From the NCBI GenBank assembly GCA_944389085.1, contig CALXLB010000069.1, forward strand, positions 1 to 64,000: a stretch of 64,000 nucleotides of DNA, read 5' to 3'. Shown here in pieces: positions 999 to 55,131 of this stretch (its first letter is position 1; each line of letters begins with the position of its first letter). The stretch comes from an uncultured Spirochaetaceae bacterium. GTDB lineage: Bacteria > Spirochaetota > Spirochaetia > Sphaerochaetales > Sphaerochaetaceae. The notes under the pieces are model-generated. The model worked only from the letters and a program-made list of their open reading frames with translations. It had not been told where the DNA came from and ran no database searches. Both the position numbers and the translations under genes were made by a program.

Positions 999-2216
999 AT
1001 GAGAAAATTTGCAGACCTTTTGGACAGATTCGTTTCTTATACAGCATTCGATACTATGAGCAACAGTGCTCTCTGCGGGAAAAAGCGTCCTACAGCTGAT
1101 GGTGAGGAAGAGCTTCTTCTTCATCTGAAATCAGAACTTGAGGCATTGGGGCTTGAAGTCTATTATGGTAAGGAAAAGGTAGTTGCAGGAAAACTTAAAG
1201 GCAACAGTGATGGCGAGCCTGTTGCTTTCATGGCTCATGTTGATACAGCGGATGATGTTCCAGGAAATGGTGTCAAAGCCATGGTCTGGCCTGATTATGA
1301 TGGGTCAGATATCGTTCTTGATGGTATAACAATAGAGAGAAAAACAAATCCAGATCTTGGGAATTATATCGGTGGTACTATCATAACCAGCAGCGGTGAT
1401 ACACTCCTTGGAGCTGATGATAAAGCTGGGGTTGCTATCATCATGGAAGCCCTTGGCTATCTTGTTTCCCATCCAGAGATCAGGCATCCCGATATTGAAG
1501 TCTTCTTCACCCCTGATGAAGAGACTGGCAGCGGCATGTCAGAGTTCCCATATGAGAAGATGGAAAGCCGTATCTGCTATACCTTTGATGGAGGAAGGGA
1601 AGGCGAGGTGGAGACAGAGTGTTTCAATGCAGCTTCCGTCAGATTCTCCATTCATGGTACGGTCTTCCATTTCGGAGATGCCCGTGGCCGCATGCATAAT
1701 GCCCTTACGGCTGCTGCTCATATTGTTACAGCACTTCCTGGCTCTGAGAGTCCTGAAGCAACTGATGGTCGCTATGGGTATTACTGTCCCACCGATATTA
1801 AAGGGACTGCAGGCGAAGCAGAGCTTTCCGTTATCATACGTGATTTTTCTGAAGAGAATTTCGAGCGCCGTCTGAAAGCCCTTCAGGCATTGGCGGAGTC
1901 AATCGGGCTGCTCCATGGTGTCTCCATCGAAACTGATGCTGATATCCAGTATCGGAACATGGCGAAAGCGAACAGCCAGAGGCCGGAGGCTCTTGAGGCT
2001 GTCTATAAAGCTGCGGAAAAACTGTCAATAAAGCTGGAAGAGACGCTTATCAGGGGCGGTACTGATGGAGCTGCTTTAGCTTATAATGGAATAGCCTCTC
2101 CGAATATCTTCACAGGAGCGCATAATATGCACTCACTGACAGAGTGGGTTGCTCTGGAAGCTATGGAGAGAGGAACAGAGCTCATGCTTGCCATTATAGA
2201 GGAAATGGTCCGATGA
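999..2216 (+). CDS. pepT: Peptidase T (tripeptide aminopeptidase, M20B)
   Basis: Zinc aminopeptidase that removes the N-terminal residue of tripeptides in the cytoplasm. The 405-residue product aligns along its length with the E. coli enzyme. The di-zinc ligands are visible: His80 (FMAHVDT), Asp140 (LLGADDKAG), Glu174 with the catalytic Glu beside it (TPDEETG), Asp197 (YTFDGG) and a His near 375 (FTGAHNMHS). The His that contacts substrate is kept, but HPG is changed to HFG. An ATG at 981 is in frame, but homology and the promoter ending at 992 both favour the start at 999. The stop overlaps the start of the next gene (ATGA), which implies co-translation. Confidence 0.95.
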   Translation: MRKFADLLDRFVSYTAFDTMSNSALCGKKRPTADGEEELLLHLKSELEALGLEVYYGKEKVVAGKLKGNSDGEPVAFMAHVDTADDVPGNGVKAMVWPDYDGSDIVLDGITIERKTNPDLGNYIGGTIITSSGDTLLGADDKAGVAIIMEALGYLVSHPEIRHPDIEVFFTPDEETGSGMSEFPYEKMESRICYTFDGGREGEVETECFNAASVRFSIHGTVFHFGDARGRMHNALTAAAHIVTALPGSESPEATDGRYGYYCPTDIKGTAGEAELSVIIRDFSEENFERRLKALQALAESIGLLHGVSIETDADIQYRNMAKANSQRPEALEAVYKAAEKLSIKLEETLIRGGTDGAALAYNGIASPNIFTGAHNMHSLTEWVALEAMERGTELMLAIIEEMVR

Positions 2217-50761: not shown

Positions 50762-50878
50762 ATGGAGTGTGTTGTTCCCTTGAAAAGCTTTAAATGGTGG
50801 TATTTGGTAATGGTATTTTATGGGAAAACTGAATCGGCATGTTGCAGCCTCCTTCTGATTGTGTTGTGGGGGGGGTAA
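50762..50878 (+). other. Possible leader ORF ending at the poly-G tract
   Basis: An ATG at 50762 opens 38 codons that run through the G tract and stop at TAA 50876-50878. If the tract had nine Gs, the frame would stay open through the terminator hairpin to a TGA at 50968-50970, overlapping the GTG start of the lipoprotein gene. No ribosome site is visible and codon content is unconvincing, so it may be chance. Confidence 0.25.
50868..50875 (+). repeat. Poly-G tract (8 G) upstream of the leucine-rich-repeat lipoprotein
   Basis: Eight consecutive Gs, the second longest G/C run in the window. It also lies within the spacer of a second possible promoter (TTGTGG 50864-50869, 16 bases, TAATAT 50886-50891), so length changes could alter promoter spacing. 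Confidence 0.9.
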
Positions 50879-50966: not shown

Positions 50967-52571
50967 GTGAAAAGAACCTGTTTCGTATTATCGCTGATAA
51001 TGCTTGTTTTCTCGTCATGTTATCAGACGACGGGTATTCCGCCAGTAATTCTTTTGCCATTTTCTGAATCTGCGGAATTTGAAGTCCAGTTTGCAAATCC
51101 GGCATTTGCTCCTTCTGAAGCTGTTCTTCCGGAGGTTGTTTCCGTAGAGAGTGGCAACAGCCTTGAAACACCTGGAAATCCAGTTTCATCTGATGATGAC
51201 TGGACATTTCTTGGATGGAGTACAGATTCTTCGACTTATGAGCTATGTGAATTTCCGATAACCATTGAAGAGGATATTGTCCTTTATGCAGTCTGGGCAA
51301 AGAAAACCATAACTCCTGCTGAACTCGATTCCATCTCTGATGGTTTAGCTTTGATGTATGACAGTACAAAGAATGGGTACATGCTGACCAGGATGTCATC
51401 ATTCGATTTTGAGACTGAGCATGAGTTCAAAGTTCCTGATGACGTAAATGGCGTTCCTGTTACATCTATTGTCCAATGGGCATTCAGCAAAGGATATGAT
51501 ACAGGTGATGGAGCAAAGTTTATAGGCGATATCGTGATTCCTCGGCATGTCAGGGAAATAGGACGTCAGGCGTTTACCAGCTGTACTGTGACGGATGGGG
51601 AATTGATTCTTCCTGAAGGGCTTGAGATTATCGGTGAAGGTGCTTTCCAGCGTCTTGATATTCAAGGGGATCTGACACTGCCTTCTTCTCTGAAATCCAT
51701 AGGTGATGGAGCTTTTGCTATGGTAGGTTTCAGTGGTCGTCTTACGATTCCTGCTTTTGACAGCAACCCATTCCCGACGGCAAGCGGTACGGTACAGGGG
51801 ATTACAGGGTCAGGTTTTACTGAAGCTGTGATACTCATGGAAGAAGAAACTCCTGGAGCAGTCCTTGTCGGTGCGCAAAGTCTTCAGCGCATTGCTCTCA
51901 GAAATGATATCAAGGAGATTGGAGATAGTGCATTCCTCAATGCCAAAGCACTTGAGCAGATTGAGTTCATCAGCCCTGATACCGATACAGATACATTCCT
52001 TTTCAGTGAAAAAGGCACGGAAATAGCATTCCCCGATACGCTTGAATCAATTGGTGCTGAGGCATTCACAGGAACAGCATTAGCAGGGAACATATATATC
52101 CCGAATGCTGAAATTGGCAACAGTGCTTTCTCCGGCACGAAAATCGAGAACCTGAGGCTTGGAAGTGGTGTCAGGAGCATCGGCAATAGAGCTTTTGAGA
52201 AATGTACAGATCTTGCTTCCTTGGATATTGCATCGGATTCTGCTTTGGAGGAAATCGGACAATTCGCCTTTTCTGGTTGTACTGAGATTACTGGAAACAT
52301 AATTCTTCCTGCCTCTTGTACCTTCATCGATATGCAGGCTTTTGCAAATTGCAGCAAGATAGAGAACATGGTGATAAAATCCTCAGCATGTCCTTTTAAT
52401 GGAGGAGAATATCCTTTCTTCTCCGGATGGATAGAAGGCCAGTCTGTCTGGTTTGAGAATATCTTGGAAGAAGATTCTGTGGCATGGCCATATGGCTGGG
52501 ATAAGAAGTATATCAATGGAGAAGACAGCATGGTGGATTTCCATTGGAAAGGAGAGAGCTTTTCGGAGTAA
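50967..52571 (+). CDS. BspA-like leucine-rich-repeat surface lipoprotein
   Basis: The 534-residue lipoprotein has Cys18 in the lipobox (VFSSC). Residues about 70-115 match a Listeria-Bacteroides (Flg_new) repeat (WTFLGWSTDS...LYAVWAKK). From about 140 to 500 there are at least eight BspA-type LRR_5 repeats (LPEGLEIIGEGAF, LPSSLKSIGDGAF, FPDTLESIGAEAF, VRSIGNRAFEKC), a fold used in adhesins. GTG start, eight bases after AAGGAGGG. The longer in-frame TTG at 50928 lies in the terminator. Expression must pass that terminator, and a poly-G tract lies upstream. Confidence 0.88.
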   Translation: MKRTCFVLSLIMLVFSSCYQTTGIPPVILLPFSESAEFEVQFANPAFAPSEAVLPEVVSVESGNSLETPGNPVSSDDDWTFLGWSTDSSTYELCEFPITIEEDIVLYAVWAKKTITPAELDSISDGLALMYDSTKNGYMLTRMSSFDFETEHEFKVPDDVNGVPVTSIVQWAFSKGYDTGDGAKFIGDIVIPRHVREIGRQAFTSCTVTDGELILPEGLEIIGEGAFQRLDIQGDLTLPSSLKSIGDGAFAMVGFSGRLTIPAFDSNPFPTASGTVQGITGSGFTEAVILMEEETPGAVLVGAQSLQRIALRNDIKEIGDSAFLNAKALEQIEFISPDTDTDTFLFSEKGTEIAFPDTLESIGAEAFTGTALAGNIYIPNAEIGNSAFSGTKIENLRLGSGVRSIGNRAFEKCTDLASLDIASDSALEEIGQFAFSGCTEITGNIILPASCTFIDMQAFANCSKIENMVIKSSACPFNGGEYPFFSGWIEGQSVWFENILEEDSVAWPYGWDKKYINGEDSMVDFHWKGESFSE

Positions 52572-52701: not shown

Positions 52702-52738
52702 GTTCTGAAAAATAATGGGCAGAACCAGAGTCCTGCCC
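52702..52738 (-). terminator. Terminator of the beta-helix lipoprotein gene
   Basis: On the minus strand GGGCAG (52738-52733) and CTGCCC (52722-52717) around a ten-base loop, followed by ATTATTTTTC. An overlapping alternative stem CTGGTTCTG (52694-52702) with CAGAACCAG (52720-52728) is also perfect. The remaining 52572-52749 gap holds one more seven-base inverted repeat (52625-52644) of unknown role. Confidence 0.6.
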
Positions 52739-52749
52739 AAAGGTATGCA

Positions 52750-55051
52750 TTACTGTTGAATGAAATCACCAGAAGGTTGCTTTTGCAACTGAACTTTACC
52801 GTCTGCACAGTGAACGGTGATAGTACTGATTGAATCAAGCTTATCAGAAGGAAGAAGCATGCTGAATGAACTTACTTCTGTGTTGAAATCAGCGTTGTAT
52901 ACATTTTTATCAACGAGAGTTGTGGAATACTCAATTTCGAACTTATAAACAACATCACCATTCTCATCAAACTTGAAAGGACTGTTGATGTTGATATTCT
53001 CTGTCACATCTCCAATCGTGTAGGAAATATATTCAACTTTCTTTGCTTCAGTGAGCGTTGCATTTGCAATCACTTTTCCGCTTGGTGTGAAAGATGTGGA
53101 CGAACCTGCTCCTCCTGATACCATAGCGCCAAATGAACCACCGCTGAATGTGATGCGGTCTTTATTGGAAGCATTACCGATATTGAAGCCATAATCAGCT
53201 CCAATGCTGCCACTGACTATACCGCCAGCAATTGTGAAAGCAGGCCTGAGCGTTGTTCCATTCTCTTCTGCGACAATAAATGCGGAGGCATTTTCAATAG
53301 TAGTATCGGTAAATGAGTAATTTCCTGTGAAAGACCCTCCATATATATTGAATGCGGAGAGATATGCAATTGCACCGTTACCATAGAGGGTATTGCCACT
53401 AAACTTGCCACCATAGATATTGAAGTATGAACCTCTGTTCTTCGCCTGTACAGCAAATAGGTTCATACCAGAGTTATTCGTGAATGTACAATCGTAGAGG
53501 CTGACAATCTCTCCAGGGCCTGATGTGCCTGATTCATAGATATAGATGGCAGCACCTGATTCCTGCCTTCCGTTTCGTGGATTCTCCAGTGACTTGTTGC
53601 CATCGAATTCAGAATTATAGATATTGAGTTTTACTGCACCGTTTACACAGATAGCACCACCGCAGTCTGCATAGTTGTTCTTGAAATCTGTTTCAAAGAT
53701 ATTTACAGTTGCCCAGCCGTTCTTTGTATTTTCAGGGCTTGGCCAATCATTGCCTCCTATAAGTTCTGTCCCTGTTTTGAGTAAGTACATTGCTCCTCCA
53801 AGGTAATCAGAACCTTTGACCAGGTCGCTGTTTTCGAATGACCCACCAACGAAGTTGAAGACATTTCCAGCAGCCAGTGAGATGTTGATTATTCTTTTTT
53901 TTGCGGCATCCGACTCCCATCTGTGACCGTTAAGATCGAATGTGACAGGTTTTGTCATGAAGGTTTGGTCCAAGCCATCGCCGCTGAAATTTTCTTTGAG
54001 GTCTTTTGTAATCTGGATATATACACCATCGTTGAAAGACATCTTTTTTGCAGCTGTATAGGCTTCAGTAACAGAATCATATTGTCCCATTGGTTTAGAA
54101 AGGGTAGGTCTAGCGTATTTCCCGTCTGTAATCGTCAGCGCTGCGTCATAAAGACTTGCCTTGATTTTCCTTGCGATGATGTCGATATTCGCATCATTGC
54201 CTTCTGCAACAGTTACAGTCAGTGTGTTGCTATCTTTGTCATATTCATAACCTTCTGGAGGGGTAAGAGTATCGTCATTGACATCATAGATCTTGTTACC
54301 ATTTCCATCTGTGATTATAGCTATCTCATCAGAACCAATTGCCTCGGTAAGATCCAATTCAATGTTCTGCCCCGGAGTTGCTACTGCTTTGATTTCCTCT
54401 CCATCCACATCGACGATGACTGTTTCATTGACGACTGTGAATGTATATGTGATTCCATTGCCGAAATCGATGGTATAGTCGCCTGCAACAGCTTTGGCTT
54501 TATCAATAGTGAGTGAGTAGGTGTTATTGCCTGATTCTGTGAGATTAATGCCTTCTGATGATGGGGTAATTTTAGGATATCCTGCTGGAACAGTTGGAGT
54601 ACTTGCATTGCCAAATGCCTTCAGGGAAATAGTACCAGTCATCTCCGGAGTTATTGAGCCATCGAAATCTGAAACTGCTCCGATTCCGTTGACTGTGACC
54701 TTTACCGGTTCGCTTTTCACGCCATTGATTTCTGCGATTATTTCAGCTTCTCCCGGTCCGACTGCGGTGATGAGTCCATCTTCAGAGACTGTTACGACGT
54801 CCGGATTGGAACTTGTCCAGGTTATATCTGCGGTAGAATCACCATTGGTCTGATAGGTGAGCTGGAAAGGCTCTTTTGGGTTTAAATATCCAGGTTGGTT
54901 TGTTATTGTGACGCTCCAGCTGGCATGACCATTGTCTGGTGGAAGAAGGATGACTTCTGAGCATGCTGATAGAGCAAGAATTACAAGGGAAAGGAGCAGG
55001 AGCTTAGCAAGCCAATACCCCCCCCCGTTGTGAACTGGTTCTGTTAAACAT
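52750..55051 (-). pseudogene. Phase-variable Big_2/beta-helix surface lipoprotein, out of frame as sequenced
   Basis: From the stop at 52750 the frame is open back past 55026. After the poly-G tract it encodes a signal peptide ending LVILALSAC (lipobox), a Big_2 immunoglobulin-like domain (ITWTSSNPDVVTVSEDG, then LITAVGPGEAEI) and a long right-handed beta-helix with Asn-Ile-Tyr-Gly-Gly and Phe-x-Gly-Asn steps. No start codon exists in this frame between the tract and a GTG at 54720, which would delete the signal. The only good start, ATG 55051 with AGGAG ten bases upstream, is one base out of frame because the tract has nine Gs. Eight would give an intact 766-residue lipoprotein. Probably a switched-off contingency gene rather than decay. 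Confidence 0.85.
55018..55026 (-). repeat. Poly-G tract (9 G on the coding strand) inside the signal-peptide region
   Basis: Nine consecutive Cs on the plus strand, the longest G/C run in the window. It sits eight codons after the ATG at 55051. With nine Gs the ATG frame ends at TAA 55006-55004 after 15 residues. With eight (or 11) it joins the lipoprotein frame. Confidence 0.95.
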
Positions 55052-55131
55052 TTCTTTATGACTCCTGTTTATATTGCGGCCATCATGATATCAGCAAGGA
55101 ACGTAAAAATACAAGGTCAGACTAAATATTA

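Follow-up and report, generated by a model that had tools for sequence, protein, structure and literature searches.

The window analysed here, a stretch of 64,000 nucleotides, comprises positions 1 to 64,000 of contig CALXLB010000069.1 in the assembly (GCA_944389085.1) of an uncultured Spirochaetaceae bacterium. On its reverse strand, a ribosome-binding site (AGGAG, 55062..55066) is located ten bases 5' of an ATG start codon (55049..55051), which is followed by a tract of nine Gs (55018..55026) that separates the start codon from the hydrophobic core of a signal peptide. In the allele as assembled, the frame of the ATG runs into a stop codon at 55004..55006 and encodes a peptide of 15 residues (MFNRTSSQRGGVLAC), that is, the gene is presently in the OFF state. 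A lipoprotein is encoded by an open frame on the same strand (52750..55026) that is out of frame with the ATG; it comprises 758 codons when counted from the first G, 755 of which lie past the tract, and ends with a stop codon at 52752-52750. Directly 3' of this stop codon, a terminator-like stem-loop of 10 pairs with a T-rich tail was found on the reverse strand (52716..52739; consensus match only). In the lipoprotein frame, neither the 42 nt 5' of the tract nor the region from the tract through the lipobox contained an ATG, GTG or TTG, and the earliest start-like codon is a GTG at 54720, well downstream of the signal. Upstream of the gene, no sequence was conspicuous as a sigma-70-like promoter, and an Rfam search of the window gave no match. 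Direct reading agreed exactly with the first-pass annotation as to the AGGAG, the ten-base gap, the ATG at 55051, the nine Gs at 55026-55018 and the stop after 15 residues, and upheld its claim that the lipoprotein frame has no alternative start before the lipobox; the 766 residues it had given for an eight-G allele are consistent with an open frame of 758 codons.

The N-terminal part of the lipoprotein frame encodes the hydrophobic core of a signal peptide and a lipobox (YWLAKLLLLSLVILALSAC, 54961..55017, reverse strand), the latter, LSAC at 54972-54961, being recognised in the translation by inspection and pattern. As in bacterial lipoproteins, the hydrophobic signal ends in the lipobox cysteine (LLLLSLVILALSAC), and acylation is predicted. 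Further downstream, a Big_2 (bacterial Ig-like) domain is encoded (54730..54855, reverse strand; Pfam PF02368, E=8.8e-9), and thus the lipobox and the Big_2 domain reported before are indeed present in the out-of-frame reading. The β-helix reported along with them was not demonstrated: a Chlam_PMP repeat was matched weakly in Pfam (E=0.036 in this protein, 0.0007 in the orthologue of genome G026), an AlphaFold model made without alignment was uninformative (mean pLDDT 42), and matches to PDB entries were limited to Ig-like domains. A search for the protein among named records gave no match.

The repeat lies within the coding region and has a unit of one nucleotide and not of three or a multiple thereof, by which the length of the tract sets the frame, and past the repeat the OFF allele retains its frame intact over all 755 codons; both are features of translational contingency loci. 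We read the nine-G tract as a translational phase-variation (contingency) switch that was assembled in its OFF allele, with a probability of roughly 0.84. Replication slippage on the tract would alter the number of Gs; in-frame lengths would yield a lipoprotein that is secreted, anchored by lipid and equipped with an Ig-like domain, and at other lengths translation would end as a short peptide. Such a switch would presumably be reversible, its product exposed at the surface, and its benefit could be an escape from the immune system or from phages, or a varied attachment. Loss of mismatch repair was considered as a source of instability and rejected, since MutS was found in the genus; with MutS present, slippage may be slow.

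Switches of this architecture are known from Neisseria, where the repeats of pilC, opa and nalP are located in or near the leader region. In pilC, hpuA and nalP, a G or C homopolymer within the gene of a surface protein decides whether the protein is read in frame, as would apply here, whereas opa uses CTCTT repeats. The spirochaete set differs from the switches of Neisseria in that it belongs to another phylum, involves unrelated proteins and is nearly confined to lipoproteins. The frames of the haemoglobin receptors of Neisseria contain poly-G as well (PMC3786947). Genic tracts of Neisseria comprise 9-20 G or 9-13 C (PMC5953494), and nine Gs are at the short end of the tracts known to switch.

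Orthologues of the lipoprotein gene were found in three genomes of the genus, and the gene is absent in most species. The orthologue of G026 is 41% identical. It has ten Gs at the equivalent place and two ATGs in frame with the tract, but is frameshifted after 515 codons; in the orthologues of G062 and G033 the tract is interrupted by an A (GGGAGGGG and GGGGAGGG) and out of frame. An intact in-frame (ON) allele was thus not present among the three orthologues. The first-pass annotation had named inactivating mutations in relatives as speaking against a switch, and in this orthologue group such mutations were encountered in part, namely the interrupted tracts of G062 and G033 and the frameshift of G026. 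The sequences indicate that the position of the switch is conserved, and the missing intact ON orthologue is the main weakness of the reading. The broken, out-of-frame tracts in two of the three orthologues, the internal frameshift in the third and the patchy occurrence of the gene would also fit a decaying pseudogene, in which the frameshift at the G run inactivated the gene for good and does not act as a reversible switch. We consider this unlikely, given that the 758 codons are free of stops and that a comparison with the G026 orthologue (dN 0.56, dS 2.5, the latter saturated) shows constraint on the frame, which evolves as a coding sequence. Moreover, 28 further lipoprotein genes have both a tract at this position and an intact frame, and one third of these genes are in frame.

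Together with the gene described here, 29 lipoprotein genes of the genus were found to carry a tract of G8-11 between ATG and lipobox. They were collected by a search for a ribosome-binding site, an ATG and then a G tract, plus later additions, and include two genes of the same genome on contigs C53 and C71. The reversed-pattern control of this search was discarded and the frequency of lipoprotein signals was used in its place, since a promoter tract with TA and GGAGG behind it fits the pattern when read backwards. Ten of the 29 genes are in frame and 19 are out of frame, which is near the 1:2 ratio that free drift of the frame would give. Together, the 19 out-of-frame genes have 7,624 codons without a stop; a long-standing loss would not have left them so. 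The position of the tract is kept while its length differs between copies and relatives, as expected of contingency loci, although two orthologues of the present gene have an interruption. One gene has ten Gs in G017 (OFF) and nine in G002 (ON), the two species differing by dN 0.16 and dS 0.35, and in a second pair nine Gs (G010, ON) are opposed to ten (G024, OFF). In G035, three paralogues whose 66-nt flanks are identical have tracts of 9, 10 and 11 Gs; all these sequences are assembly consensuses, of which the multi-copy ones could be mis-assembled. The phase-variation reading of the first-pass annotation is supported by this recurrence of in-frame and out-of-frame tracts at one position.

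The intact frames of the out-of-frame alleles are also compatible with transcriptional or ribosomal slippage, by which the nine-G allele would always make some full-length protein and the tract would act as a leaky dimmer and not as an all-or-none switch. RNA polymerase can indeed slip on long homopolymers. However, reversible switching predicts intact OFF alleles equally well, the interrupted tracts of G062 and G033, although out of frame, would not slip, and the variation in length exists in the DNA itself, which makes a dimmer quite improbable.

The nine-G tract is located downstream of the ribosome-binding site and the ATG and not between a −35 and a −10 element, and thus differs from tracts of the porA/tprL type. 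At other loci of the same genome, G tracts do occupy promoter spacers, with the layout TTGACA, approximately 10 nt, G8-12 and TAnnnT. A search for TTGACA, a gap and at least eight Gs retrieved 229 sites, which are spread over 33 of 48 genomes of the genus with up to 14 sites per genome, and none with the reversed pattern; elsewhere in the class the pattern is sporadic. In Bullifex porci, a relative that can be cultivated, one site of the promoter type was found. In the 123 sites that were read in spirochaete loci, TAnnnT directly follows the tract in 112 (background 1.5%), and the tract ends 15-23 nt from the −35 element, most often at 19 nt. Lipoproteins are encoded by 107 of the 113 ORFs downstream of promoter tracts (~95%), compared to 4 of the 71 ORFs preceded by a ribosome-binding site in the window. 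In the present genome, promoter copies with near-identical flanks carry 8, 9 and 11 Gs, so that both the use of G tracts by lipoprotein promoters and the differing lengths among near-identical copies are in line with phase variation.

The window contains a second G tract (50868..50875, forward strand), a run of eight Gs directly before TAAGTT. It lies 91 nt 5' of a convergent gene and has no clear −35 element; judged by its position, it is possibly part of a promoter spacer. The convergent gene (50967..52571, forward strand) encodes a putative lipoprotein with the lipobox FSSC and BspA-type leucine-rich repeats (Pfam LRR_5, E=9.7e-43), and it ends ~180 bases away from where the nine-G lipoprotein gene ends. 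The layout TTGACA-Gn-TAnnnT was also observed in assemblies labelled Clostridia, Firmicutes or Bacilli (L140, L144, L231, L185, L151, L213, L127 and L183), often with several sites per contig and before secreted proteins; TAnnnT follows the tract in all 46 sites that were read outside spirochaetes.

In the genome under study, 14 runs of at least nine Gs were counted and ~5 were expected from a first-order model. This ~3-fold excess is modest and weak by itself; the placement of the runs is the strong evidence. Among 29 distinct tracts of at least eight Gs in this genome, ten are located in a promoter spacer, and a further three lie before a gene and have a match resembling a −10 or −35 element. 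Lipoprotein frames have a tract at their start in three cases, and phage baseplate-like frames in two. The remaining 11 have no assignment, one being a further promoter copy that is cut by the end of a contig. Besides the tract described here, the tracts at lipoprotein starts are those on C53 (eight Gs, in frame) and C71 (nine Gs, out of frame).

Since homopolymers are prone to error and the assembly is fragmented (112 contigs), the nine-G length could be an artefact of sequencing or assembly and the true tract in frame in all cells. Against this, many independent assemblies have in-frame and out-of-frame lengths at one position in a ratio of about 1:2, pairs of species differ in tract length, and general errors would not prefer lipoprotein starts and −35/−10 spacers. 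Such an error is thus highly improbable, and the contingency switch is retained as the explanation of the locus. The locus would be part of a genus-wide set of lipoprotein genes with G tracts of two kinds, translational ones between start codon and lipobox and transcriptional ones in the −35/−10 spacer.

The promoter sites of the genus have the architecture of the variable promoter poly-G of tprL, Tp0126 and tprE/G/J of Treponema pallidum and of porA of Neisseria, in contrast to the nine-G tract, which is in a coding region; further, the targets in the genus are lipoproteins and not Tpr outer-membrane proteins as in T. pallidum. A lipoprotein coat subject to combinatorial phase variation would resemble the Vlp/Vpma systems of Mycoplasma, but these use recombination, whereas the spirochaete set uses poly-G tracts. 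In variable lipoproteins of Mycoplasma, poly-A promoter spacers occur as an alternative to recombination. For tprL, a change between 8 and 10 Gs in the promoter changes activity, and the tract of porA lies between −35 and −10 (PMC7864442). Combinatorial variation of the lipoprotein coat by Vlp/Vpma is described in PMC11868660.

The genus consists mostly of uncultured spirochaetes and includes Candidatus Ornithospirochaeta stercoravium and Ca. O. stercoripullorum; the species of Candidatus Ornithospirochaeta are from chicken faeces, and NCBI places the genus in Spirochaetia. In the literature covered, Candidatus Ornithospirochaeta is mentioned most in a study of the chicken gut. A single locus of this kind is a known type of switch; the interesting part is the genus-wide scale and the near-exclusive choice of lipoproteins. 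It is likely that throughout the genus, including Ca. Ornithospirochaeta, the lipoprotein coat is a combinatorial lottery, in which many lipoprotein genes of a genome are each governed by a G tract, in the −35/−10 spacer or between start and lipobox, and each cell displays a different mix. If true, animal-associated spirochaetes that are not known as pathogens would possess an extensive set of genes that vary in phase by poly-G, almost all of them for lipoproteins. The genus appears to carry up to 14 promoter-type tracts per genome in addition to the coding ones, nearly all on lipoproteins. In the literature searched, no paper on phase variation in this genus was found. A recent review asks whether many phase-variable loci are truly restricted to pathogens or whether this is a bias of the databases (PMC11868660), and with the many lipoprotein G tracts of the genus, this question can be put directly to metagenome reads that already exist. 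Annotation pipelines will label genes of this kind as pseudogenes or overlook their signal peptides.

Some further observations were made on the G runs of this genome (G000). Nearly all runs of at least eight Gs are followed by TA, even outside −10 hexamers, which was not seen in G017 and G035. The promoters of one multi-copy lipoprotein family (MKKSILIGVLAALMLFAFTAC...) are near-identical; this family is often located at contig ends (C15, C54, C68, C90, C98, C101 and others), and the assembly therefore probably undercounts it. The two phage baseplate-like frames (Gp10_C, Pfam PF21939) are neighbours on L032, each with a nine-G tract just before it (2790-2798 and 2111-2119, reverse strand), a placement that suggests G-tract switching of phage tail parts.
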